From an uncultured Lachnospiraceae bacterium (GTDB lineage: Bacteria; Bacillota; Clostridia; Lachnospirales; Lachnospiraceae): a stretch of DNA of 43,935 bases. The stretch spans positions 1 through 43,935 of the forward strand of contig CANDKY010000020.1 of the NCBI GenBank assembly GCA_947385425.1, written 5' to 3'. The notes below the pieces were generated by a model. That model was given only the letters and a program-made list of their open reading frames with translations, searched no databases and was not told the origin of the DNA. Below are positions 1,442 through 22,226 of this stretch, one piece after another. Positions within the stretch are counted from its first letter, which is position 1. The number at the start of each line of letters is the position of its first letter. The position numbers and the translations under genes were made by a program.

Positions 1442-1517
1442 TAGAGCGTGTTTAAAATCTCACTTTCACAAACTGTGGCGCACATCCGGCAAAAAGAAGA
1501 TTTTAAACAGGCTCTTA
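1442..1517. repeat. MITE-like repeat R1, copy a (complete, about 76 bp)
   Basis: It has terminal inverted repeats of about 19-20 bases: TAGAGCGTGTTTAAAATCT at the left and AGATTTTAAACAGGCTCTTA at the right. The interior shares a core (CACAAACTGTGGCGCACATC) with the copies at 8753, 12760 and 34205. The right end coincides with the TAA stop codon of the aldo/keto reductase gene (1515-1517), so the element supplies that stop. Folded, it could act as a transcription terminator or mRNA end stabiliser. Confidence 0.8.
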
Positions 1518-2432
1518 CGGCAACAGTTTTCCTGCCGCAAGGTACATCTCATACCATTCCTCCCTGGTCATGCATACATCGGAAGCCTTGCTGATATCCT
1601 GCACTCTCTTTGCGCTGGTACTGCCCACGATAGTCTGAATACCTGCCGGATGGCGCATAATCCACGCAACGGCGACTGCATTGGGCGTTACCTGGTATTT
1701 TTGCGCCAGACGGTCCATCACCTCATTGAGCCTGGGGAATTTCTCATTTCCGATAAACACTCCTTCAAACATTCCGTACTGGAAAGGCGACCATGCCTGG
1801 ACAGTCATTTTCTTCAGCCTGCAGTACTCAATCACACTGCCCTCCCGGCTGCATCCCGCATCATTATGGATATTCACATTAAACCCCCCATCGATAGTCG
1901 GACAGTGCGCCACGGAAAACTGAATCTGGTTCACGCATACCGGCTCCTCCAGACAACTGTTTAACAGTTCGATCTGCATCGGATTGTGGTTGCTGACGCC
2001 AAAGCAGCGCACCTTTCCTTCCTTCTTCAAAACCGAAAACGCTTCCGCCACTTCCTCCGGCTCCATCAGCGCATCGGGACGGTGCAGGAGCAGAATATCA
2101 ATATATTCGGTGTTAAGCCGCTTAAGGCTCCCGTCCACGGACTTAAGTATATGTTCTTTGGAAAAATCATAACAGATACCGGGGCGGATTGCGCACTTGG
2201 TCTGAATTACCATCCTGCCGCGCAGTTCAGGCGTCAGCACCTTTCCAAACTCCGCTTCCGCTTCTCCCCCCGCATAAATATCCGCATGGTCAAAAAAGTT
2301 CATCCCCGCTTCCATGGAAACATCAATAAGCTCCCGTACTGCCTTACTGTCCGCAAGGCTTGTAAGCCTCATACAGCCAAGGCCAACCGCTGAAACCTCC
2401 GGTACATTTTTGTTAATACGAATCATTTTCAT
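1515..2432 (-). CDS. Aldo/keto reductase
   Basis: This 305-residue NAD(P)H-dependent carbonyl reductase has the (beta/alpha)8 aldo/keto reductase fold. The catalytic tetrad is visible: Asp48 and Tyr53 in FFDHADIY, Lys79 in VIQTKC and His117 in LLLHRPD. The C-terminal cofactor-binding motif is TIVGSTSAKRV. It resembles the YdhF-type clostridial oxidoreductases rather than eukaryotic AKRs. The start is the first of two near-adjacent ATGs, chosen because AAGAGG lies 7 bases upstream. The gene follows the response regulator by 42 bases in the same direction, so it is probably co-transcribed with the sugar-transport genes. It may reduce a sugar or aldehyde derived from the imported compound, but the substrate is unknown. 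Confidence 0.88.
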   Translation of the reverse strand: MKMIRINKNVPEVSAVGLGCMRLTSLADSKAVRELIDVSMEAGMNFFDHADIYAGGEAEAEFGKVLTPELRGRMVIQTKCAIRPGICYDFSKEHILKSVDGSLKRLNTEYIDILLLHRPDALMEPEEVAEAFSVLKKEGKVRCFGVSNHNPMQIELLNSCLEEPVCVNQIQFSVAHCPTIDGGFNVNIHNDAGCSREGSVIEYCRLKKMTVQAWSPFQYGMFEGVFIGNEKFPRLNEVMDRLAQKYQVTPNAVAVAWIMRHPAGIQTIVGSTSAKRVQDISKASDVCMTREEWYEMYLAAGKLLP

Positions 2433-2474
2433 TATTTACCTCTTTTCCGCGCATTTTTACGCCTATGTTATTTG

Positions 2475-3980
2475 TTATTTCCTTACAGACATCTGATACT
2501 TTTTCGGTGTCATCCCTGTCTCCTGCTTAAAAAAGCGGATAAACTGCGAAGTATCGTTGTATCCTGTCATGGAAGCCACCTCCGTAACCGAAAAATTTTC
2601 TTTCTCCAGAAGTTCCTTCGCATGCGCCATCCTGACCTGCCGCAGGAACGCCGTAAAACTGATCCCTTTCTTTTCCGCAAAAAGATGGCTCAGGTAATCC
2701 TGATTCATAAAAAGGACCTTCTCCGCCAGCTCCTTCAAGGATATATCCTGATTATAACGCTCCAGGGCATATTCCGTCAAAATATCCGCGATCTCTTTTT
2801 TGCCCCCGCTCCCGGCCCTGCATCCCATCCGGCATATATTTTTGCTCACATTCCTCAAAAAATGCTCCATATCGTCCAGAGAGCCGAAACGCAGGATACC
2901 GGCATGCGTCCTGTCCATATTTTCCCTTTCCTGCCGGTTTTCCCCGATTGACTGGTAAAACAGGAGGATCAGCCTGGAATACAGCAGTTCCAGACATTCC
3001 GCCTTCACCCTCCCCTGCCGCCTCAGTTCCTCAAAAACCGCCCGGATAATATTTTCCGTCCCCCTTTCATTCCCATTCCGCAAAGCCTCTGAAAACGCAT
3101 CTTCCCTGGCTTTCGTAAGATAATAGCTCTCTGCAGGCTCCATTTTTAATTTCTCCGAAAAATAAATCCCCTCGCCGTATATCTTATATTTCAGCGCATC
3201 TTTCGCTTCCCAGAATGCGATTTTGAGCTTTCCGGCCTCCGTGTAGGCTTCGCTTACCCCCATGCTTGCCGGGTATCCCTTTTCACTCAACAGCTTACAA
3301 AGCTTTCTCCAAAAAAAGCAGTTTTCCTCGGGCACCGTCACCAGCGCCCAGATATCAAAATCCATTTCCAGAAAACGGAACCGGCTCCAGAATGCACCTC
3401 CGTAAATCCTTTCTATCTTTGCCAGGAAATCCTGCCGTTCCGGTTTCCTATCCCGGAACTTCACTGCCGTAACCTGGTAGGCATGGTACACCTTACGGAA
3501 CATTCTTTCTTCCACAAAACCGGAATAGCTTTCTTTCCTGATACTGTTTGCGATGAACTGTGTGACAATATCCTGGCCGGTAAGCAGCGCTTCCTTCTTT
3601 TCTTCCCGATTCTTCTGCACAAACTTGTCCAGACACTCGCCAAGCGCCTCGTTCTCAACGGGCTTCAGCAGATAGCCCGATGCCCCATGGGTCAGGGCCG
3701 AACGCGCATACTCAAAATCCGAATAAGCACTGATAATCACCACCTGCGTCCGCATATCCTCTTCCCGTATTTTTTCCAGGAGCCCAAGGCCGTCCATCTT
3801 CGGCATACGGATATCCGTTATCACCAGCTCCGGCCGGTGTTCTTTAAAAAGCGCCTCTCCCTCCTCCCCGTTGGAAGCCTGCCAAATAAGAAACTGCCCC
3901 TGGCTGTCATATTCCCTGATCTGCTTAACCAGGGATTCCCTCGCATACAATTCGTCCTCCACTACCAGAATTTTAACCAT
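2475..3980 (-). CDS. YesN-type response regulator with AraC-family output domain
   Basis: This 501-residue cytosolic transcription regulator has an N-terminal receiver domain (about 1-120). The phospho-acceptor is Asp56 in LVITDIRMPKMDG, acidic residues are in VVEDE, and the conserved lysine is Lys106 in YLLKPVEN. A middle region of about 250 residues matches no domain I recognise. The C-terminal 100 residues are an AraC/XylS double helix-turn-helix, with VTEVASMTGYNDTSQFIRFFK typical of the second helix pair. GGAGG lies 9 bases upstream of the ATG. The gene sits inside the ABC transporter operon, 49 bases after the second permease. Its likely partner is the YesM-type kinase at 8877-10685. 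The expected role is activating the operon promoter when the sensor detects the sugar. Confidence 0.92.
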   Translation of the reverse strand: MVKILVVEDELYARESLVKQIREYDSQGQFLIWQASNGEEGEALFKEHRPELVITDIRMPKMDGLGLLEKIREEDMRTQVVIISAYSDFEYARSALTHGASGYLLKPVENEALGECLDKFVQKNREEKKEALLTGQDIVTQFIANSIRKESYSGFVEERMFRKVYHAYQVTAVKFRDRKPERQDFLAKIERIYGGAFWSRFRFLEMDFDIWALVTVPEENCFFWRKLCKLLSEKGYPASMGVSEAYTEAGKLKIAFWEAKDALKYKIYGEGIYFSEKLKMEPAESYYLTKAREDAFSEALRNGNERGTENIIRAVFEELRRQGRVKAECLELLYSRLILLFYQSIGENRQERENMDRTHAGILRFGSLDDMEHFLRNVSKNICRMGCRAGSGGKKEIADILTEYALERYNQDISLKELAEKVLFMNQDYLSHLFAEKKGISFTAFLRQVRMAHAKELLEKENFSVTEVASMTGYNDTSQFIRFFKQETGMTPKKYQMSVRK

Positions 3981-11714: not shown

Positions 11715-11798
11715 GCAGGAATGGCGGAATTGGCAGACGCGCACGGTTCAGGTCCGTGTGATAGCAATATCATGAGGGTTCAAGTCCCTTTTCCTGCA
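11715..11798 (+). tRNA. tRNA-Leu (anticodon CAG)
   Basis: The acceptor stem pairs GCAGGAA with TTCCTGC, followed by discriminator A. The anticodon arm CACGG/CCGTG encloses TTCAGGT, giving anticodon CAG. A long variable arm (TGATA...TATCA) marks a class II tRNA, and the T arm contains GTTCAAGTC. The 3' CCA is not encoded. Confidence 0.95.
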
Positions 11799-11921
11799 CT
11801 TAGCAGATAGCTTTGAAACATTTATAAAATTAGTTCTCCAGGATTTTAAAAGCTTATGCTGTTATTTTTTTGTAAGAGGATGGAGTAGCCGACAAATAAG
11901 CGGCTGCTTTATAAGAAAAAT

Positions 11922-11993
11922 GGCTCGTTGGTCAAGCGGTCAAGACGCCGCCCTCTCACGGCGGAAACAGGGGTTCGATTCCCCTACGAGCTG
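11922..11993 (+). tRNA. tRNA-Glu (anticodon CTC)
   Basis: The acceptor stem pairs GGCTCGT with ACGAGCT (one G-U pair), with discriminator G. The anticodon stem CCGCC/GGCGG encloses CTCTCAC, giving anticodon CTC. The T arm contains GGTTCGATTCC. CCA is not encoded. No integrase or attachment-site duplication is visible next to it. Confidence 0.95.
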
Positions 11994-12025
11994 TTGACTG
12001 TTTTTTTAAACAGCCCAACCCGGAA

Positions 12026-12075
12026 ATACCGGAAGCCTGTAACAGCAAGCTTCCCGGTATTTTTTATTTATTTTT
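12026..12075. terminator. Terminator between tRNA-Glu and the Uma2 gene
   Basis: ATACCGG-AAGC pairs with GCTT-(C)-CCGGTAT and is followed by a T-rich run on the plus strand, ending tRNA transcription. A-rich sequence on the other side could let it also serve the leftward Uma2 gene. A short extra hairpin, CTGTTT/AAACAG, lies directly after the tRNA. Confidence 0.75.
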
Positions 12076-12084
12076 ATACCACCA

Positions 12085-12639
12085 CTATTCAATGCTTATT
12101 CCAGCGAAATCAATTTCAAAGCCTTCATATATCCCGGCCTTTACTTTATCCGAAAAAGAATATTGCCCAAAGGTATCCTGTTCAAAATTATAAACCATAA
12201 TTGATTGTTGTGCCGGATCCACTATCCAATATTCTTTAACACCTGCTGTACCATATTTTAGTAACTTCTTATTATAATCCATCGCACGGCTGGAAGGCGA
12301 AACAACTTCAATAATCCAGTCCGGCGCCCCCTTACACCCTTCGTCTGTAAGCTTGTCCTTATCGCAAATTACAGAAATATCAGGCTCAAGATATATTTCA
12401 TTGTCCGCATTCAAAAATACTGCAAATGGTGCCGGATAGACTTCGCAATCCCCGTTATTACTATGAATATAGTTTCCTATTGTCCAGTCCAAAAAATGCA
12501 CAAGTTTTTGATGAATCCTATTAGGCGTTGCCATCATATATAATCCACCGTCAATTAATTCTGCCCTTTGCCCGTCCGGCAAATTATAAATGTCTTCCAT
12601 TGTGTAATAACTTAATTGCTTTGCTACTGCTGCATTCAT
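12085..12639 (-). CDS. Uma2-family (DUF820) PD-(D/E)XK nuclease-fold protein
   Basis: This 184-residue protein belongs to the Uma2/DUF820 family of restriction-endonuclease fold. An N-terminal TMEDIYNLPDGQRAELIDGG, then LEPDISVICD, then IIEVVSPSSRAMDYNKKLLKY supply the family's Asp, Glu-x-Val and Lys positions, followed by EYWIVDP. The open frame extends upstream, but GGAAGG sits 7 bases before the ATG of MNAAVAKQ. It has its own promoter. The family is abundant in cyanobacteria and also found in Firmicutes; a DNA-cleaving role in mobile-element or defence contexts is proposed but poorly tested. By eye the gene is more A+T-rich than the housekeeping genes of the window. Confidence 0.85.
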   Translation of the reverse strand: MNAAVAKQLSYYTMEDIYNLPDGQRAELIDGGLYMMATPNRIHQKLVHFLDWTIGNYIHSNNGDCEVYPAPFAVFLNADNEIYLEPDISVICDKDKLTDEGCKGAPDWIIEVVSPSSRAMDYNKKLLKYGTAGVKEYWIVDPAQQSIMVYNFEQDTFGQYSFSDKVKAGIYEGFEIDFAGISIE

Positions 12640-12661
12640 CCAATCACCTTCCCTTTCTATT

Positions 12662-12690
12662 ATTATATAGTGTGCTTCGTGATGCTGCAA
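12662..12690 (-). promoter_or_regulatory. Promoter of the Uma2 gene
   Basis: On the minus strand TTGCAG (12685-12690), a 17-base spacer and TATAAT (12662-12667) form a good housekeeping promoter about 23 bases upstream of the chosen Uma2 start codon. Confidence 0.75.
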
Positions 12691-12759
12691 GTCACTTTTC
12701 GCATACGCAGCCCATTCACCCATATACGGCGCGCAGCCCGCACATTGGTGAATAGCTCC

Positions 12760-12821
12760 TTAGAGCCTGTTTAAAAATCTGCTTTTTGCCAGATGTACGC
12801 CACAGTTTGTGAGAGGTTTGC
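12760..12821 (+). repeat. MITE-like repeat R1, copy c (half element)
   Basis: It starts TTAGAGCCTGTTTAAAAATC, carries the core GCCAGATGTACGCCACAG and ends TGTGAGAGGTTTGC. It aligns along its length with copy b and with the left and right parts of copies a and d. Confidence 0.8.
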
Positions 12822-12846
12822 ATTCCCTCTAAATTTCAAGTATAAT
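12818..12846 (+). promoter_or_regulatory. Promoter created at the junction of repeats R1c and R2
   Basis: TTGCAT at 12818-12823, whose first bases are the end of repeat R1c, is followed by a 17-base spacer and TATAAT at 12841-12846, which abuts repeat R2. It points toward the alkyltransferase-like gene, giving a leader of about 145 bases. Confidence 0.6.
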
Positions 12847-12890
12847 TAACTTAAGCTTTCCGGTGTGCTGCAAACCATATATCTCAATCC
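12846..12890 (+). repeat. Dispersed repeat R2, copy 2
   Basis: It matches the reverse complement of bases 1-45 at 42 of 45 positions. It follows directly on the predicted -10 box at 12841-12846. No open reading frame is associated with it. Confidence 0.75.
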
Positions 12891-12998
12891 AGACCATTGA
12901 AAGACGCCGGCACTAAGGAACTGTTCCTTAGGCACCGTATCCGATTTTTTTCAGTTTATTCGGCTGGGGTTTACGAAACAGAAAAGGCAGGTTTTAAG

Positions 12999-13313
12999 AT
13001 GAAAAAAATATTAGAAGAAGCTTTAATATATGAAATACTGTCGGCAGTGGAGGAAATCCCTGAAGGCAAGGTAGCCTCGTACGGGCAAATCGCAAAATGG
13101 ATCGGCAGGGAAAAGAATGCCAGGCTGGTAGGAAAAGTTTTGTCTATGGCCGAATATTACGGAGATTACCCCTGCCACCGTGTCGTGAACCATGCAGGAA
13201 GGCTGGCGCCGCATTTTAAGGAGCAAAGGGAATTACTGGCCTGCGAAGGCGTGGAATGCAAAGAAAACGGGTGTGTGGATATGAAAAAATACCAGTGGAA
13301 GATAGATGGATAA
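12999..13313 (+). CDS. Alkyltransferase-like (MGMT DNA-binding domain) protein
   Basis: This 104-residue protein equals the C-terminal DNA-binding/active-site domain of O6-alkylguanine-DNA alkyltransferase, without the N-terminal domain. VASYGQIAKWIG is the recognition helix region. NARLVGKVL carries the arginine-finger position (Arg42). The active-site motif is PCHRVV with Cys59. Typical ATL proteins of this size replace that Cys with Trp, so this one may still accept alkyl groups. The frame is open 34 codons upstream, but the ATG before KKILEEAL is preceded by AAAAGGCAGG and marks the family's usual start. The likely role is alkylation-damage handling. Confidence 0.85.
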   Translation: MKKILEEALIYEILSAVEEIPEGKVASYGQIAKWIGREKNARLVGKVLSMAEYYGDYPCHRVVNHAGRLAPHFKEQRELLACEGVECKENGCVDMKKYQWKIDG

Positions 13314-13356
13314 TTATCCCCCGCAAAAAGCAGACACTCCTTCCGTTCAAACTCTG

Positions 13357-13420
13357 CAAATTCCATATTTGTACATCCCTTCTTACTACAATTGCATAAA
13401 TCCCATGTTTGTACATTCCA
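13357..13420. repeat. Pair of about 22-bp direct repeats
   Basis: AATTCCATATTTGTACATCC and AATCCCATGTTTGTACATTC begin 41 bases apart in the short gap between two convergent genes. They differ at a few positions. No function is evident; they may be a remnant of a larger repeat. Confidence 0.5.
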
Positions 13421-13449
13421 GCTTAGGAACTGTCCAAATGTTTTTACTT

Positions 13450-14352
13450 TTAAGTTGGATATGTAACATTGGGGAGTTTCCTGCCGATATAGCAGACCAG
13501 CATTCCAACCTCCTTATATTGAGGAATAAAAAAAATTCTCCCCGGAATACCGGTAAAACGCATATGCCAACTGGCAACGTATGCCTCTCCCCCTTCATCC
13601 GTAAATGTATGCCAGACCTCATACTTTTCCATTGTAGCCTTGCTCTCCATTGTCGTCTTTGTCAACAATTCCGGCTGAAACCTTCCGTTCCCGTGTTCCA
13701 CATAATAACATTCCAGTTCTGCCAGCTTCCTCAGAATCTGCGCGAGATAAACCTTTTCCAACGAATCCAAATCATTTTCCACTGAAGGGCAAAAACTTAA
13801 ATGCGGAAAAAGTTCACCCCGCCGTTTCCAAAGTTCTTCGTAAGACCAGACATTTAAATTTCCCCTGCTTCTTAAAACTTCTTTTACATAATCACATTCC
13901 AACTGTTCCTTACAAAAAACATTCTTAACACGGGCTTCCCTCTCCTCATCATCTGCCAGAGAATAAAGTTCACCCTCTATGACCTCCTTTCCCCATTTTC
14001 CGTCCAGACAGATACTTACCATAAATGAATCATTCAGGCAGGCTTCCGTTCCCCCTTTCAGCGGCTCACCATCACAGGACATCTCATATTCATCTTCCGG
14101 ATGATACCGGATCCCCCGCTGCCAAAACAAGGAATATAATCTCCTATATTCAATATCTGCTGACGCCAGCCATTTCCCCAAAGAATAATCCCCCGGCCTT
14201 AAATAAATAACTTCTCCTTCCGGTATATAAATTTCACATTCCGGATAAACCCGCTTAACTGCCGCGTAAATATCCAGAAAACGTTTAACGGCATTATCAA
14301 TCACATATGGATCTTCCTGTGATGCCTCCCACGACCTTTCATTTAAATACAT
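13450..14352 (-). CDS. Third protein of the DUF262/AAA15 operon, unknown function
   Basis: This 300-residue protein has no domain I can name with confidence and no signal peptide or membrane segment. The first 200 residues are acidic and rich in Trp and Tyr. The last 50 (GRIFFIPQ...MLVCYIGRKLPNVTYPT) form a beta-rich tail. A pattern of GRI-hydrophobics followed by YIG+KLP recalls the C-terminal strands of RelE/ParE-fold proteins; this is inference. The frame can be opened from a TTG 13 codons earlier, but AGAAGGGGG 6 bases before this ATG decides the start. It lies 56 bases after the ATPase gene and is clearly co-transcribed. It is the candidate effector or specificity subunit of the operon. 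Confidence 0.75.
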   Translation of the reverse strand: MYLNERSWEASQEDPYVIDNAVKRFLDIYAAVKRVYPECEIYIPEGEVIYLRPGDYSLGKWLASADIEYRRLYSLFWQRGIRYHPEDEYEMSCDGEPLKGGTEACLNDSFMVSICLDGKWGKEVIEGELYSLADDEEREARVKNVFCKEQLECDYVKEVLRSRGNLNVWSYEELWKRRGELFPHLSFCPSVENDLDSLEKVYLAQILRKLAELECYYVEHGNGRFQPELLTKTTMESKATMEKYEVWHTFTDEGGEAYVASWHMRFTGIPGRIFFIPQYKEVGMLVCYIGRKLPNVTYPT

Positions 14353-14408
14353 TGCAATCCCCCTTCTGCCTTCCTCAAGCACGTCCGGCAAATTAAAACA
14401 ATAAATGC

Positions 14409-15500
14409 CTATATTATTTCAAACAATGCCTTATCCCACTCATCAAAAAAGCCTTCCGGCCAACAGTCAAGCCTTCCATCCTGCAAGATTTGTGGATGGA
14501 CGCACTTATGGGAGTAGCCATCCCTTTCATCTTTGAAAAAGAAAGATAACGCAGCCTCTTCCCTTGGAATTATCTTTTTCCTGACTGACAGGCGCAGCCC
14601 ATTCAATATATGGTCACTATGAGTCTCTATGATTAACTGAACTCCTCCCGCCCCGGCACAGGCTATCAGCTCCCCAAGCATCCTCTGCCCCGCCGGATGG
14701 ATATGGGCTTCCGGATTCTCTATCACAACAATATCACCGCTTTTTGCAGACAATATCGCAACAATCAGAGGAAAAACATATGTGATCCCAAACCCTACAT
14801 TAACGCTTTTATAAAACCCTGTTTTCTCCCGGCCCTCGATAAATTCATAACGTATTTCCGAGCTTCTTAACTGCATATTAACCGTCACATGGGGGGACAC
14901 ACCCGGCGAAATCCTATCCAGCCACACCCGGGTTTGGTTTCTGAGGGAATTCCCCAGCTTATCCTTTATAACCACGTTCCTATTCTCTACCTCATTATCA
15001 CCATAAGAATCCAAATACTGCAAAGCATACTCTCCGTCATTCCCAAATTCCCTGCCGGCGGTTTCCTTTTCATTCTGGATACGGTACAAATCCTGCGGCT
15101 GGATACGGTATGCAGACAGATAACTAAAGCAATTCCCGAACAATCCTGCCTCTGGCACATTCCCGCCGCCGGTTAAAACAGGCAGGAAATCCGATTCCGG
15201 CAAATACTGATATTCCCAAAACCGCTTCCCCGTTTCATCCATATACCCCAAGCCAATCCGCTCTTCCTCCGCTTTCTCATACAAAGCATCCTGCGCATTC
15301 CCGATGGATACATATTCCCCATTCAAATACAGCCCCTTCATGCCATCCCCCTTCCGGACAGACTGTCTCAGCAACAGAAGGCTTTGGATAATCGTAGACT
15401 TCCCCATCCCGTTTATCCCCGCCAAAATATTTACCTGCTGCATCGGCAGGATAAAATCTTCAAAACATTTAAAATTCTTTATATGGATTTCCTTTATCAT
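14409..15500 (-). CDS. AAA15/DUF3696 ABC-type ATPase
   Basis: This 363-residue SMC/OLD-like ABC-fold ATPase has no TOPRIM or coiled-coil insertion. Walker A is GINGMGKS (28-35). A signature-like SVNVGFGITYVFPL lies at 232-245. Walker B is DIVVIENPEAHIHP (256-269), and the H-loop is ETHSDHILNG (292-301). The C-terminal 45 residues end DGRLDCWPEGFFDEWDKAL, the hallmark of DUF3696. The start codon overlaps the DUF262 stop by four bases, so the two proteins are translationally coupled. Such ATPases act as sensors or regulators of effectors in several anti-phage systems (OLD, Septu, Gabija and others have related folds). It probably works with both neighbouring proteins. Confidence 0.88.
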   Translation of the reverse strand: MIKEIHIKNFKCFEDFILPMQQVNILAGINGMGKSTIIQSLLLLRQSVRKGDGMKGLYLNGEYVSIGNAQDALYEKAEEERIGLGYMDETGKRFWEYQYLPESDFLPVLTGGGNVPEAGLFGNCFSYLSAYRIQPQDLYRIQNEKETAGREFGNDGEYALQYLDSYGDNEVENRNVVIKDKLGNSLRNQTRVWLDRISPGVSPHVTVNMQLRSSEIRYEFIEGREKTGFYKSVNVGFGITYVFPLIVAILSAKSGDIVVIENPEAHIHPAGQRMLGELIACAGAGGVQLIIETHSDHILNGLRLSVRKKIIPREEAALSFFFKDERDGYSHKCVHPQILQDGRLDCWPEGFFDEWDKALFEII

Positions 15501-16771
15501 ATAAACTCCTTCACCATCTTTCGCACCATATCAATCCTGCGCGCCAAAGAATAAGGATCCCCGGCTTTCAATGCCGTAATAAATTCCTGATTTCTCTGCA
15601 AGCGCCCGAAGGCCCTGAGGAACGCTTCCCTATCACTCATAATTTTCCGTAACTGCATCTGCGTAAGGTCGGAAAAACATACCGTCCATATTTCAAACAA
15701 AGCCTTATTCATTGGCCCCCTGCGCCGGTTTTCATTATATTTACGAAAAGCATATTTTCCGAATATCCCCGCACAATATCCCATAATCCTTTTAAAATTC
15801 TCTTCTATTTTGGCTATTTCCGTATCCTCATAAGTATTGACCAGTTTCATTGCTTTTATCAGATAATTGTCAATATTGCCTTCATACTCCGTCTCATAAT
15901 CAAGTTCCGTAAATGCCAGGAAACGTGTCACATATTCCCTGTCCTGCATCCTCTTAGCCGGAACCGCCCCCTGCGTTGCTTCCTGAAAATCCGTACTTCG
16001 TGCAAGCCGCTCAATCAATTCCGTCGCTTTCCCCTGATAAAGCGCCTGGCGTATTTCCTGTTCATTTAATACAATTCCCCCTGTATTAATCCTCTGGAAA
16101 ATATTAAATACAATTTCATCCGGCGTCCCTTTTTCTACCGTATATGCCACCACGGAAGTCTCTTTAATCCTTCTGGTATACTGCCTTGGTAAATCATCAA
16201 ACGTATGCCCGTTAAAATCCTTTAGATACTGGAGGCCGATAAATTCCTGCTTCACCCTTTGCTTCCCATCCCCAGCCGGGATACCGACCAGAAAATTCAA
16301 AAAAGCAGTCAAACGCTGAAGGCCGTCAATAACTATCCATTCATCCTCTTTGGATGCATTAAAATAAAATGCCGGTATCGGTATCTTCAGCATAAGAGAC
16401 TCAATCAGCCTGCTTTGCTGTTCCAATTTCCATAAATCCCCCTGCCTTTGAAAACTGGGCTTCAAATCAATCTCCTCATTCTCCAAACGTTCCATCAAAT
16501 GATATACCGTAACAGGCCTTTGCCCAATATTAACTTCTGCCGGAATAAAGTTCTCAGGGCTTGCATTTGATACCGGATATTCCTCTTCTTCCTCCGGGGC
16601 TATGTTAACCCCTCCGGCGCTTAGTTCACCTACCGCATCCAGAATTTCCTCCTCCGAAAAATCTCCCCTGTCCTTCAAAATATCCATTACCACGTTATAA
16701 CTTACCTTATTCCCGTTATTCCGGGCAAACTCTGTAATCTCGGCAAGCTTTTCTTCCAAACCTTTTTTCAT
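15497..16771 (-). CDS. DUF262 (GmrS/ParB-like) protein with a sigma-1.1-like N-terminus
   Basis: This 424-residue protein's DUF262 domain spans about 80-300. It has the motifs PSFQRQGDLWK (Arg109), LIESLMLKIPIPAFYF and VIDGLQRLTAF (149-157), the form of the DGQQR nucleotide-processing motif. DUF262 is the N-terminal part of the GmrSD type IV restriction enzymes, but here no DUF1524 HNH nuclease domain follows; the C-terminal 120 residues are helical. Residues 1-60 (helices around VSYNVVMDILKDRGDFSEEE and a following acidic tail) resemble the topology of sigma-70 region 1.1; this is inference. GGGGGAT lies about 9 bases upstream of the ATG. It is the first gene of the three-gene operon, with its own promoter. 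Confidence 0.85.
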   Translation of the reverse strand: MKKGLEEKLAEITEFARNNGNKVSYNVVMDILKDRGDFSEEEILDAVGELSAGGVNIAPEEEEEYPVSNASPENFIPAEVNIGQRPVTVYHLMERLENEEIDLKPSFQRQGDLWKLEQQSRLIESLMLKIPIPAFYFNASKEDEWIVIDGLQRLTAFLNFLVGIPAGDGKQRVKQEFIGLQYLKDFNGHTFDDLPRQYTRRIKETSVVAYTVEKGTPDEIVFNIFQRINTGGIVLNEQEIRQALYQGKATELIERLARSTDFQEATQGAVPAKRMQDREYVTRFLAFTELDYETEYEGNIDNYLIKAMKLVNTYEDTEIAKIEENFKRIMGYCAGIFGKYAFRKYNENRRRGPMNKALFEIWTVCFSDLTQMQLRKIMSDREAFLRAFGRLQRNQEFITALKAGDPYSLARRIDMVRKMVKEFI

Positions 16772-16809
16772 CGCCCATATCCCCCGCCTGTTATCCGACC
16801 TGTAAAAAA

Positions 16810-16838
16810 ATTATACCATAAACTTAAAAGCCTGAAAA
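16810..16838 (-). promoter_or_regulatory. Promoter of the DUF262-AAA15 operon
   Basis: On the minus strand TTTTCA (16833-16838), 17 bases and TATAAT (16810-16815) form a plausible promoter whose -10 lies about 40 bases upstream of the DUF262 start. A small hairpin, GCCTG/CAGGC, overlaps the -35 box. Confidence 0.7.
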
Positions 16839-16866
16839 CAGGCAGTTTTGCGCCTCCAAACCACAA

Positions 16867-16903
16867 AAATCCATTTTCAGGCGCAGCACCCGAAAATGGA
16901 TTT
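16867..16903 (-). terminator. Terminator of the carB transcript
   Basis: AAATCCATTTTC and GAAAATGGATTT form a perfect 12-bp stem with a 13-base loop. On the minus strand the stem is followed by TTTTT, as in an intrinsic terminator, just after the carB stop codon. It insulates the car operon from the DUF262 operon downstream. Confidence 0.85.
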
Positions 16904-16922
16904 CCATACTGGCATCCTATTT

Positions 16923-19900
16923 TTAGTTAAGGGAAGCAATATCCACCAATGTCATCTCCCCGCCGCCCGCATTTTCCAGGCTGGTCACAAGGGCCTTTGC
17001 CGTATCGAGGGAGGTCAGGCAGTTTACGCCCGTTTCAATCGCCGTCCGCCGGATAAGGAAACCGTCCCGGGATTTATCGCGCCCCTGGGTCGGCGTATCA
17101 ATTACCAGATCGATCTTATGCCCCAGGATCAAATCCATCACCGTAGGCGACTCCTGGGAAATCTTATTTACCTTGCGGGCGCCTACCCCGGCTTCCTTCA
17201 ACGCATTGGCCGTACTCCTGGTGGCATATATGGTATACCCCAGCTTTTCAAAACGCCTCCCGATCTCCACCGCTTCCCCTTTGTCCGCGTCTTTTACGGT
17301 TATAATCATCTGCCGGAACTTCGGCAGATCCACGCCTGCCCCGAGGAAAGCCTTATACAGCGCTTCATGAAAAGTCCTAGAAATGCCCAGGCACTCGCCG
17401 GTAGACTTCATCTCCGGCCCCAGGCTAATCTCTGCGCCCCTGATTTTCTCAAAGGAAAAGACCGGCATTTTAACGGCCACATACCCCGCTTCCTTCTGCA
17501 GCCCCGGCTCATAGCCCAGCCCGCGTATGGTTTTCCCTGTCATCACCCCCGCCGCCAGATCCACAATCGGTATCCCCGTCACCTTGCTGATATAAGGCAC
17601 TGTGCGGGATGCCCGGGGATTGACCTCTATCACATATACTTCCTCCCCCACCGCGATAAACTGTATGTTAATCAGCCCTATAACATGCAGCGCTTTCGCC
17701 AGCCTGCCCGTATATTCCGCAATCGTTCCCTTCACCTTTTCGCTGACAGTCTGTGCCGGATATACCGAAATGCTGTCGCCGGAATGCACGCCGGCCCTCT
17801 CGATATGTTCCATAATGCCCGGTATGAGGATATCTGTCCCGTCGCAGACCGCGTCCACCTCGATTTCCTTCCCCTGCAGATACTTATCCACCAGAATCGG
17901 ATGATCCTGCGCAATCCGGTTGATAATTTCCATAAACTCTTCCACTTCGGCATCGGAAATGGCAATCTGCATCCCCTGCCCGCCCAGCACATAGGACGGC
18001 CGGACCAACACCGGGTAGCCCAATTTATTCGCCACCCTTTTTGCCTCCTCCGCCGTATACACCGTACCTCCGGACGGCCTCGGGATCCGGCACTTCTCCA
18101 GGATAGCGTCAAATAATTCCCGATCTTCCGCAGCATCCACATTTTCCGCGCTTGTCCCCAGGATAGGCACCCCCATCTTCATCAGGCTCTCCGTCAGCTT
18201 GATGGCCGTCTGCCCGCCAAACTGCACCACTGCCCCGTCAGGTTTCTCCTGGCGCACAATATTCTCCACATCCTCCGGTGTCAGGGGTTCGAAATAAAGC
18301 TTATCCGCAATATCGAAATCCGTACTTACCGTTTCCGGGTTATTATTGATAATCACAGTCTCATAGCCCGCTTTGGCAAAAGCCCAGGTGGCATGCACCG
18401 AACAATAGTCAAATTCAATCCCCTGCCCGATGCGGATAGGCCCGGAACCGAGCACCAGCACTTTCTTTGGCGGGCGTGTTTCTTCCGCTTCATTCTCACC
18501 GCCAAAGCAGGAATAATAGTAAGGAGTGCTGGCCTCAAATTCCGCCGCACAGGTATCCACCATTTTAAAGACGGCCGTGATGCCGTTTGCATAACGCATC
18601 TCCTTCACTTCCCCTTCGCTTTTCCCTGTAAGCCTGCCGATGACGGAATCCGGGAATTCCATGCGCTTGGCCTCACGCAGCAGATCTGCGGTAAGCGGCT
18701 TTGTCTGCAAAGCCTTCTCCATTTCAACCAAAACGGCTATCTTGTCAATAAACCAGCAGTCGATCATGGTTATCTCATGGATTGTCCCGTAATCAACGCC
18801 CTTACGGAGCGCTTCCGCAATCACATATATTCTCTGGTCATCCACTTTTTTCATCCGCTCCAGCAGTTCTTCTTTGGACAACGCTGAAAAATCATAGCTG
18901 AGCAAACAGTCCACATGCTGCTCCAGGGAACGGATGGCCTTCATCAGCGCACCTTCGAAATTCGTGCAGATGCTCATAACCTCCCCGGTAGCTTTCATCT
19001 GTGTAGTCAATGTGCGTTTTGCCGTCAGAAACTTATCAAAAGGGAGCCTGGGGATTTTCACCACGCAGTAGTCCAGCGCCGGTTCAAAACTGGCATAAGT
19101 TTTTCCCGTGATTGCGTTTTTGATTTCATCCAGGGTATAGCCCAGCGCAATCTTCGCCGCCACTTTTGCAATCGGATATCCCGTTGCCTTGGAGGCCAGC
19201 GCGGAAGAACGGCTGACACGGGGATTCACCTCGATGACACAATATTCAAAACTGGTGGGATGCAGCGCGAACTGCACGTTACACCCGCCTGTGATTTCCA
19301 GTTCGTTGATAATATTCAGCGCGGCGCTGCGCAGCATCTGGTATTCCTTATCCATCAATGTCTGGGACGGGGCCACTACGATACTGTCGCCGGTATGCAC
19401 CCCTACCGGGTCGATATTTTCCATGTTGCAGACCGTGATACAGTTCCCTGCGCTGTCACGCATCACTTCATATTCGATTTCCTTCCAGCCCGCAATGCAC
19501 CGCTCCACCAATACCTGCCCTACCCGGGACAGCCGCAGGCCGTTTTCGAGTATCTGCTCCAATTCCGTCTGGTTGCGGGCGATACCGCCGCCGGAACCGC
19601 CCAATGTGTAAGCAGGGCGCAGCACCACCGGATAGCCGATCTTTGCCGCAAAGGCCACACCGTCCGGCAGGTTTTCCACTACAAGGGAGGCCGCGCAGGG
19701 TTCCCCGATTTTTTCCATCGTTTCCTTAAATTCCAGCCTGTCTTCCGCCTTCTTTATGGTTTTTGCCGTAGTCCCAAGCAAAGCTACATGGTGCTTTTCC
19801 AGAAAACCGGACTCGTCCAGTTCCATCCCTAAGTTCAGCCCTGCCTGCCCGCCCAGCGTAGGCAGGACACTGTCCGGCTTTTCTTTTTCTATGATCTGTT

Positions 19901-20123
19901 CCAGTACTTTTGCCGTCAAAGGCTCGATATATACCTTATCCGCGATATCCCGGTCCGTCATAATGGTAGCCGGGTTCGAGTTCACCAGCACCACTTCTAT
20001 GCCCTCCTCCTTGAGGGAACGGCACGCCTGCGTGCCCGCATAGTCAAACTCCGCCGCCTGCCCGATGACGATAGGGCCGGAACCGATTACCAGTACCTTC
20101 TTAACATTAGGATTCTTTGGCAT
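16923..20123 (-). CDS. carB: Carbamoyl-phosphate synthase large subunit
   Basis: This 1066-residue synthase makes carbamoyl phosphate from bicarbonate, ATP and ammonia supplied by CarA, feeding pyrimidine and arginine synthesis in the cytosol. Two homologous ATP-grasp halves are visible: residues about 1-400, starting [20 protein letters not shown], and about 550-935, starting [19 protein letters not shown]. An oligomerisation segment lies between them. A C-terminal allosteric MGS-like domain ends in [17 protein letters not shown]. Length is normal for the family. The start has GAAAGGGAA a few bases upstream. The gene starts only 15 bases after the HEPN gene, so it is read as the fourth cistron after carA, MNT and HEPN. 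Confidence 0.98.
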
Positions 20124-20138
20124 TTTTATTTCCCTTTC

Positions 20139-20549
20139 TTATATTTCCTGTTCCGCTTCTTTTCTGCTAATATACTCTTTCACTGCATTAAAAAAAGTTT
20201 CCGCATGTGCCAACTGTATTGCCGAATCTTCTTTTGATGCTATAAAAAAATCAGAATAATCACATTTTTCCCGAATACGATACGCACCGTCAATCAACTT
20301 ATAAATTTTTCTGTCAAATGTTCCCGTATGGACAAAAAACTGGTTAAAATGTGCAATTACAGAACTGTGTTTTGAAGAATCAAAACCATCCAATATATTT
20401 ACCGCCCGAATACTATGGAAAATGGCATAATAAGACCGGTTAATTGCCGCCTTATAAAACCCTGACTGATGATTGTTTTCTGCCGCATGCAAATCCTCTT
20501 TTGCACGCTCCATTCTATATTTACATAAAGTCCACATATCATGCGGCAT
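20139..20549 (-). CDS. HEPN-domain protein, putative toxin partner of MNT
   Basis: This 136-residue all-helical HEPN protein has the motif NRSYYAIFH giving Arg38-x6-His45, the catalytic R-x4-6-H pattern of HEPN RNases. The segment KEDLHAAENNHQSGFYKAAINRSYY is typical of COG1895-type HEPN proteins. I prefer the ATG of MPHDMW, preceded by AGAGGGGG about 9 bases upstream, over the upstream in-frame start inside the MNT gene. The start overlaps the MNT stop by 11 bases, implying translational coupling. MNT/HEPN pairs include proven toxin-antitoxin modules in which HEPN is the RNase; in HepT the motif is RX4HXY, and the trailing Tyr is absent here. The gene is A+T-rich compared with flanking carA and carB. 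Confidence 0.85.
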   Translation of the reverse strand: MPHDMWTLCKYRMERAKEDLHAAENNHQSGFYKAAINRSYYAIFHSIRAVNILDGFDSSKHSSVIAHFNQFFVHTGTFDRKIYKLIDGAYRIREKCDYSDFFIASKEDSAIQLAHAETFFNAVKEYISRKEAEQEI

Positions 20550-20889
20550 ACAGAACAACCCCCTCTTCAGATACCTTCCGGTAAAATGGCGAAACCTGCT
20601 TCCATTCCGAGTATTCCTGGTAACTAACATCCATAATAGAAAACACTTTTAAATATTTCAACGAAATATCTGTAGACACATCACTGAGTTTATCACTATA
20701 CTCCCGAAGTTCAGCATCACTACCGTCCACCAACACCATAATATCTATATCGGAATCCTCCGTCTGTGTCCCCCTTGCTACGGAACCATACAATATGACC
20801 GCTCTCAGCTTCTCCCCATAAACCTGCCGCAAAAGCCCTGCAAGCTCGGATAATATCCTGCCCATTTCTCCATTCCCAGCCCATTTCAC
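20539..20889 (-). CDS. Minimal nucleotidyltransferase (MNT), putative antitoxin
   Basis: This 116-residue nucleotidyltransferase has the pol-beta signature G35-S36-x10-D47-x-D49 in LYGSVARGTQTEDSDIDI. Proven MntA antitoxins carry the same signature and inactivate HEPN partners by adding AMP. The start is GTG, fixed by AAGGAGG about 9 bases upstream. The gene lies 131 bases after carA and overlaps the HEPN gene. A 13-bp palindrome on a possible -10 box in the upstream gap suggests the pair may also be expressed from its own promoter. An antitoxin role is inferred from pairing. Confidence 0.87.
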   Translation of the reverse strand: MKWAGNGEMGRILSELAGLLRQVYGEKLRAVILYGSVARGTQTEDSDIDIMVLVDGSDAELREYSDKLSDVSTDISLKYLKVFSIMDVSYQEYSEWKQVSPFYRKVSEEGVVLYAA

Positions 20890-21020: not shown

Positions 21021-22226
21021 CTACCCTTTCATGCTGTCAATGAACCGGTCAAACAAATATGCGGAATCCTGCGGCCCCGGGCATGCTTCCGGGTGGAACT
21101 GCACCGTAAAAATATTCTTCCCGGTATATGAAAGCCCTTCGTTCGTACCGTCATTCACATTGACAAACGCCGGCACCGCCACTTTTGCATCCAGCCTGTC
21201 CGCATCCACCACATACCCATGGTTCTGTGAGGAAATATACACCTTCCCGGTCTGCAGATCCTTTACCGGGTGGTTCCCTCCCCTGTGCCCGTATTTCATT
21301 TTGTACGTATCAGCCCCTGCGGCCAACGCCATAAGCTGATGTCCCAGGCAGATAGCAAAAACCGGGATTTCCGTCTCATACAGTTTCCGTATTTCCTTAA
21401 TGATCGAAACGCACTCTTTCGGGTCGCCCGGCCCGTTGCTCAGCATAATCCCGTCCGGCGCATCCGCTATAATCTCCCCGGCCGGAGTAAACGCCGGATA
21501 AACGGTTACATCACAGCCCCTGCTCACGAGCGAATCCGCAATATTACCCTTTGCCCCCAAATCCAGCAGCGCCACATGCAAAGCCTTCCGCACCATACCT
21601 TTTTCCGCTATGCCGTTTAACTCCCTCACCATACTCGGGCGCTTCTCATGGACTCCGGCCTCATAACTCTCCCTGGTAAACCTCGCGCTCCCCGATACAG
21701 CGCCGTTTTCTTCCAACGTTTTTACACCCTTTAATTCATACTTCTGTTTACAGGTTACTTTCTCCACTACCTTTCCCGTGGTATATTCCTTCAGACGGGG
21801 AAGGACTGCTTCCGGCGAATAATCCGCATCCGTGGTAATCATCCCGTTCATCGTCCCCTTTTTGCGCAAAATCTTAGTCAATGCCCTCGTATCGATCCCC
21901 GCAATCCCGGGCACGCCATAAGCCTCCAGAAACTCCTGCACTGTCATATCCGACCGGAAATTGCTGGCCATCCTCGACAGCTCCCTCACGATCAGGGCAT
22001 CCGGCCACGGCCTTACCGACTCCATATCCTCCCTGCACACCCCATAATTGCCAATCAGGGGATAAGTCATACAGACAGCCTGCCCTGCATAAGACGGATC
22101 CGTCAACACCTCCGGATAACCTGCCATAGACGTATTGAACACAATCTCACTGATGACTTCCTTTTCGGCGCCTATATGCGTCCCTTCAAAAACAGTGCCG
22201 TCTTCCAAAATTAAAAATGCCCGCAT
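21021..22226 (-). CDS. carA: Carbamoyl-phosphate synthase small (glutaminase) subunit
   Basis: This 401-residue subunit hydrolyses glutamine and channels ammonia to CarB. An N-terminal CarA domain (FLILEDGTVFEGTHIGA ... GIAGIDTRALTKILR) is followed by a class I glutamine amidotransferase domain. That domain has nucleophile Cys293 in FAICLGHQL and His378/Glu380 in FHPEACPGP. It is longer than the common 355-385 residues because of a linker at about 168-215 between the two domains. GGTAGGAAAG lies immediately upstream of the ATG. In most genomes carB follows directly; here an MNT/HEPN pair intervenes. A strong promoter and a duplicated leader lie upstream. No PyrR-type attenuator was recognised. 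Confidence 0.97.
   Translation of the reverse strand: MRAFLILEDGTVFEGTHIGAEKEVISEIVFNTSMAGYPEVLTDPSYAGQAVCMTYPLIGNYGVCREDMESVRPWPDALIVRELSRMASNFRSDMTVQEFLEAYGVPGIAGIDTRALTKILRKKGTMNGMITTDADYSPEAVLPRLKEYTTGKVVEKVTCKQKYELKGVKTLEENGAVSGSARFTRESYEAGVHEKRPSMVRELNGIAEKGMVRKALHVALLDLGAKGNIADSLVSRGCDVTVYPAFTPAGEIIADAPDGIMLSNGPGDPKECVSIIKEIRKLYETEIPVFAICLGHQLMALAAGADTYKMKYGHRGGNHPVKDLQTGKVYISSQNHGYVVDADRLDAKVAVPAFVNVNDGTNEGLSYTGKNIFTVQFHPEACPGPQDSAYLFDRFIDSMKG

Follow-up and report, generated by a model that had tools for sequence, protein, structure and literature searches.

Menshen is a described three-gene anti-phage system (NsnA-NsnB-NsnC), originally reported by Millman et al. 2022, as cited in passages of a review (PMC10952713). 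According to the same passages, resistance is lost when the DUF262 gene is mutated or deleted, and the DUF262 protein is suggested to regulate an OLD nuclease; a table row in a second source lists the mechanism as unknown (PMC12926258). Here we analyze an operon in a 43,935-nucleotide stretch of DNA (the window) from an uncultured Lachnospiraceae bacterium (GCA_947385425.1, contig CANDKY010000020.1). Judged by profile matches and gene order, it is a complete three-gene Menshen system, one more member of a known system, and we consider it rather likely that NsnA and NsnB form a sensor that releases a tethered, RelE-like ribonuclease carried on NsnC. The operon comprises three genes:

15497..16771, minus strand: nsnA, DUF262 (ParB/Srx-type) protein of 424 residues (PADLOC NsnA and Pfam GmrSD_N)
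14409..15500, minus strand: nsnB, ABC/OLD-like AAA15 ATPase with a C-terminal DUF3696, 363 residues (PADLOC NsnB, Pfam)
13450..14352, minus strand: nsnC, 300 residues from the ATG at 14352 (PADLOC NsnC; start-site context)

The defence assignment was made with PADLOC models, in which Menshen is represented by PDLC03877, PDLC03878 and PDLC03879. NsnA matches its model with an E-value of 1.4e-123 (411 bits; residues 61-424 on profile positions 26-383 of 385), NsnB with 4e-109 (363.5 bits; residues 1-362 on positions 1-342 of 345) and NsnC with 9.7e-52 (positions 4-304 of 305), and the genes lie adjacent on one strand in the order A-B-C. The initial annotation of this DNA had proposed a candidate new defence system, which is rejected because all three proteins match models of one described system. 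It had also raised a divergent member of Menshen: the name was right, but NsnA and NsnB are not outliers, since their bit scores resemble those of a second complete Menshen in the same genome (414.8 and 341.3 bits; contig C64, locus L005, 4814-7882). Between the two copies, NsnA is 39% and NsnB 35% identical, and NsnC shows no BLAST similarity. The best model for the second NsnC is PDLC03895 (1e-49); its N-terminal part matches the NsnC model of the window (3.3e-13), and at the other end 100 residues match the C-terminal portion of a CARF_DUF2103 model (7e-12). The genome has a third DUF262 gene (contig C76, L006, 7118-9011), followed by a 160-residue open reading frame (ORF) that is HEPN-like by eye; its ORF list shows no NsnB, although the contig reaches no further.

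The three leftward genes, with a four-base overlap between nsnA and nsnB and a short gap before nsnC, lie as first described. The nsnC ORF extends over 13450-14391 (minus strand) and encodes 313 residues if counted from the TTG at 14391, 17 bases behind nsnB. Its start is probably the ATG at 14352, which leaves a gap of 56 bases, is preceded by a purine-rich sequence and gives the 300 residues annotated initially.

Three features of NsnA and NsnB bear on a possible sensor role:

16037..16483, minus strand: GmrSD_N (DUF262) domain of NsnA, with the nucleotide-binding motif DGLQR at residues 149-153 (Pfam; motif comparison)
16580..16771, minus strand: residues 1-64 of NsnA, an N-terminal extension that may be a winged-helix DNA-binding domain (weak matches)
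14418..14570, minus strand: DUF3696 tail of NsnB, residues 311-361 (PF12476, 47.5 bits, cut-off 22)

GmrSD_N scores 86.2 bits in NsnA (cut-off 33.2), and the DG-x-QR motif is found in all 27 NsnA proteins compared. At E-values up to 1, Pfam gives NsnA no match to the DUF1524 HNH nuclease domain, by which a GmrSD type IV enzyme would be recognized, in agreement with the annotated DUF262 protein lacking a nuclease domain. Scanned alone, the N-terminal extension matches Sigma70_r1_1 (E 0.0016) and an archaeal MCM winged helix (E 0.0045), both below cut-off; the genome's other NsnA lacks it. NsnA N-termini vary among relatives: Mrr_N is above cut-off in L009 (4617-6092), and long unmatched extensions occur in L085 (2616-4556) and L103 (3725-5677). 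NsnB matches AAA_15, AAA_21 and DUF3696 above cut-off, which bears out the ABC-type ATPase with a DUF3696 tail; no TOPRIM family is among the Pfam matches of this protein. Walker A (G-x-N-x-x-G-K-S/T) is present in 26 of 26 NsnB proteins by this looser pattern and in 14 of 26 by a stricter one, and the Walker B pattern in 21 of 26.

For NsnC, Pfam yields nothing up to E = 1, consistent with the third protein without a recognisable domain of the initial annotation. A toxin-like fold is predicted for its C-terminus, which holds five candidate residues:

13453..13854, minus strand: NsnC C-terminal domain, residues 167-300, predicted RelE/YoeB-like fold (structure prediction)
13645-13647, minus strand: candidate residue E236
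13564-13566, minus strand: candidate residue H263
13558-13560, minus strand: candidate residue R265
13537-13539, minus strand: candidate residue R272
13477-13479, minus strand: candidate residue K292

The predicted resemblance to RelE-type toxins suggests that NsnC is what halts the infected cell, and thus lends support to the initial view, which placed the effector question with the third protein. The candidate catalytic residues are conserved among NsnC proteins by alignment (A5, which holds 26 of the 30 proteins matched by the C-terminal model described below; L075, L085, L089 and L108 were left out). No RelE/HigB sequence-profile match was found for the domain with Pfam, NCBIfam or hhalign, and we liken NsnC to a RelE toxin in action and do not assign it to the RelE family. 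By hhalign, no relation to the C-terminal domain of the second copy, L005, was found either.

The organization of NsnC was compared across 46 distinct proteins, after two identical copies were dropped and the cut NsnC of L043 and the NsnC of L080 were left out. A hidden Markov model (HMM) of the C-terminal domain, built from 16 sequences, matches 30 of the 46 (15 of them seed members) and misses 16; an N-terminal HMM, built from eight, matches 21 with the seed included, most weakly L005 (5.7e-6) and L044 (1.7e-5). Four proteins (L005, L044, L009 and L046) match the N-terminal and not the C-terminal HMM, and their sequence ends differ. NsnC is, by these comparisons, a modular protein with an N-terminal region and an exchangeable C-terminal domain. 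Some of the alternative ends resemble toxins: L048 ends in Gp49/DUF891 (25.6 bits, cut-off 23.9), with a weak RelE/ParE model match below cut-off (E 0.0023); L049 ends in DUF4160 (35.5 bits, cut-off 23), with a DhiT toxin model below cut-off (2.5e-6); and L046 matches the MAG6450 family below cut-off (1.7e-7). L094 and L118 miss the C-terminal HMM yet carry a similar end motif by eye, and were not counted as different. The C-termini of L107, L110 and L083 resemble phospholipase-D nucleases by eye only, with no family match.

A search of 325 genomes of the order with the C-terminal profile matched eight: the source genome, a known Menshen genome (G037), G244 (L225), the genome of L226, and four marginal matches (E 0.003-0.007) that were set aside. 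The L226 protein (1474-3123; 549 residues) matches the PADLOC candidate HEC-07 (8e-26), and its last 128 residues match NsnC models (best 2.3e-10); neither nsnA nor nsnB was seen in the ORF list of this 3.4 kb locus. In a literature search with most subscription papers outside its coverage, no relevant NsnC paper was among those listed and HEC-07 was not found in a defence context, from which novelty does not follow. The RelE-like C-terminal domain may already be in print; a paper about polymorphism of Menshen domains (Li et al. 2025, gkaf357) has a fitting title.

In the mechanism that we favor, NsnA (ParB/Srx-type nucleotide-binding, with a possibly DNA-binding N-terminus) and NsnB (ABC-type ATPase) would sense infection together, most likely through DNA, while NsnC would carry the effector, its N-terminal region tethering it to their complex. 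Nucleotide binding by NsnA and NsnB would switch on the toxin end, by release or activation, and this end would, probably at the ribosome, cleave mRNA; the infected cell would then stop growing, an abortive outcome. The scheme draws on profile membership, gene order, the modular NsnC, the predicted fold and the conserved candidate catalytic residues. A broader formulation takes Menshen as modular tethered-toxin immunity, in which an NsnA/NsnB sensor holds and lets go of interchangeable NsnC toxins from the pool that also supplies type II toxin-antitoxin systems and CRISPR effectors. The domain of the window would then represent a family of RelE-fold ribonucleases without a name (E, H-x-K/R, R, H/K), which another candidate defence protein, HEC-07, shares; on this formulation we are evenly divided.

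The variability of NsnC also admits another interpretation. NsnC is the most divergent component between the two copies in the genome, as expected under phage pressure for a sensor or specificity subunit whose variable C-terminus binds phage molecules; NsnA (by ParB/Srx nicking) or NsnB (as an OLD-like ATPase) would then act on DNA, in keeping with a mention of ParB/Srx proteins as nicking (a passage of PMC12839542) and with the OLD-family TOPRIM component assigned to Menshen (a passage of PMC10952713). We regard this interpretation as unlikely: the NsnC C-termini of some relatives match toxin families, that of the window has a toxin-like predicted fold, and by Pfam NsnB lacks a TOPRIM match and NsnA a DUF1524 match.

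Several observations weigh against the tethered RelE-like ribonuclease. Structural comparison of the predicted domain with the RelE-like fold gives Z < 8, a range for which the tool warns of a possibly just common arrangement. Neither NCBIfam (up to E = 0.1) nor Pfam matches the domain; hhalign with the Gp49 domain of L048 returns a probability of 0.5%; and a PDB sequence search with the C-terminal profile yielded no plausible chain, the best (E 0.021) being an unrelated protein. The NsnC model as a whole has a mean predicted local distance difference test score (pLDDT) of 64.4 and a predicted template modelling score of 0.52, and most of residues 1-165 fall under pLDDT 50 or 60, leaving the N-terminal half, the proposed tether, unmodelled. 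No family was matched by the other scanned C-termini outside the C-terminal HMM; with most of the 16 HMM-negative ends thus unassigned, toxin identity is shown for few. By eye, L226 has S in place of the R of R-I-[HYF]-F that is invariant in NsnC; R272 is hence not conserved throughout beyond NsnC. No antitoxin or mechanism of inhibition was identified for NsnC. Lastly, the RelE-like fold is also common to ParE, a gyrase poison, and the fold alone therefore shows no ribonuclease action; a ParE-like gyrase poison in place of the ribonuclease, with the tethered-toxin scheme otherwise unchanged, is in our estimate improbable.

The distribution of relatives bears on whether the operon serves in conflict at all. 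Of 392 genomes of the order, 28 (the source genome among them) contain NsnA at E 1e-40 or better, and we inspected 20 of 28 order-level places outside that genome, 15 of 22 plasmid records and one of seven phage records; near copies, and loci truncated where a contig stops, are part of these counts. NsnB adjoins NsnA in seven of the 20 order-level places, all with NsnA at E 5.8e-93 or better, and the third gene is whole in five of these seven (contig ends leave L043 with part of it and truncate L045 within nsnB). Thirteen order-level loci with weaker DUF262 matches (NsnA E 4.0e-80 to 2.6e-41) have no NsnB by BLAST and were rejected as Menshen, as were the phylum-level L067 and L068, again with no NsnB match. 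The NsnA-like DUF262 proteins of the latter two (L067, 202-1542; L068, 4801-6162) end, by eye, in an HNH-nuclease-like stretch. The complete A-B-C set is present in a phylum-level genome (L066), a planctomycete (L008) and Lacibacter (L009).

On plasmids, an ATPase gene follows the DUF262 gene in all 15 inspected records (annotated as DUF3696 in 13 and AAA family ATPase in one, and read from ORFs in one), and a third gene is present in 14, the remaining record ending there. Vibrio phage L9-1 (L085, 2616-6686) carries a three-gene Menshen-like set behind an integrase and a cytosine methyltransferase gene. Among the best 80 of at least 197 virus-derived relatives, 28 passed the A-B rule and L131 was dropped for low scores (94 and 39 bits); of the 27 A-B loci left, which include near copies (L087-L089, L090/L091, L094/L118, L107/L113/L119), 24 have a third ORF and three end at or near a contig edge. 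In some of the 53 other viral loci (e.g., L092, L101), the contig runs out after the DUF262 gene. A first NsnA contig scan with poor patterns gave three loci (one cut by a contig end) and a first viral scan none; query P0003 by itself retrieved a single plasmid and nothing from phages or viral contigs. A search of 60 other genomes (15 from the same genus; incomplete ones among them) turned up no relative of the window's NsnC, and its model PDLC03879 matches one of 391 genomes of the class, the source genome itself.

The gene order recurs across phyla and also in plasmids and virus-derived contigs, which, together with the anti-phage model matches of all three proteins, supports the conflict system first proposed. 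That the genes are decayed or serve housekeeping, as the lack of any phage assay for this operon would allow, is very improbable: the three frames are open with Walker A and DGLQR intact, NsnC is absent from the 60 genomes above, and plasmids, a phage and virus-derived contigs carry relatives.

The operon appears to be carried as accessory DNA next to carB, the following features lying around it:

11715-11799 and 11921-11994: tRNA genes
12085-12642: Uma2-family gene near the two tRNA genes (PADLOC PDC-S03, 8e-45; G+C 0.384)
16810..16838, minus strand: promoter-like site upstream of nsnA (TTTTCA, 17 bases, TATAAT, with TG; 10 of 12 consensus positions)
20139-20889: MNT/HEPN pair between carA and carB

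In 12 same-genus genomes, DNA similarity to the window ends at the carB 3' end (16919-16997), and no nsn genes were found in the stretches reaching 0.9 to 4.8 kb past carB, so that a Menshen further off would be missed; no relative of the window's NsnC was found anywhere in these genomes. Flank genes were matched at 30% identity over 60 residues or more. The operon is A+T-richer than the housekeeping genes, as first judged by eye (G+C 0.433, 0.461 and 0.430 for nsnA, nsnB and nsnC vs 0.539 and 0.526 for carB and carA), and the annotated neighbors, two tRNA genes, a Uma2 gene and an MNT/HEPN pair, are all present. The operon's own promoter fared less well: a site does exist at 16838-16810, but 12000-17200 holds nine such sites vs 10.6 expected from shuffles, and since they are no commoner than that, the site is plausible at best. 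The carA and carB genes are directly adjacent without MNT/HEPN in 11 of 12 same-genus loci, the twelfth (L196) ending before carA; similarity to the window breaks around the pair at 20123-20138 and 21024-21048, and the HEPN gene has a G+C of 0.357 and an R-x6-H motif by eye.

While the operon itself adds one more Menshen, the predicted RelE-like end with its five candidate residues makes the effector question testable, and the two copies in one genome, with dissimilar NsnC C-termini, make domain swaps possible. Compared with RelE, YoeB, HigB and ParE toxins, the NsnC domain lacks sequence-profile similarity, has no antitoxin gene in view and is fused to another region. Cami1, a CARF-RelE effector of type III CRISPR systems, is activated by cyclic oligoadenylate through its CARF domain, whereas the window's NsnC has no CARF match in PADLOC or Pfam. 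With GmrSD, BrxU and SspE (DUF262 and DUF1524), NsnA shares the DUF262 domain and its DG-x-QR motif, but it has no DUF1524 match, and by gene order its partners are the ATPase and the third protein. Menshen is the system that the locus equals: all three components are near full length and adjacent on one strand, with the difference that NsnA carries an N-terminal extension of ~60 residues, of which the PADLOC match covers just the last part. A passage of the review gives Menshen a TOPRIM component, for which the proteins of the window have no match, and the present sequences point to NsnC as the effector rather than to the OLD nuclease named there (PMC10952713).

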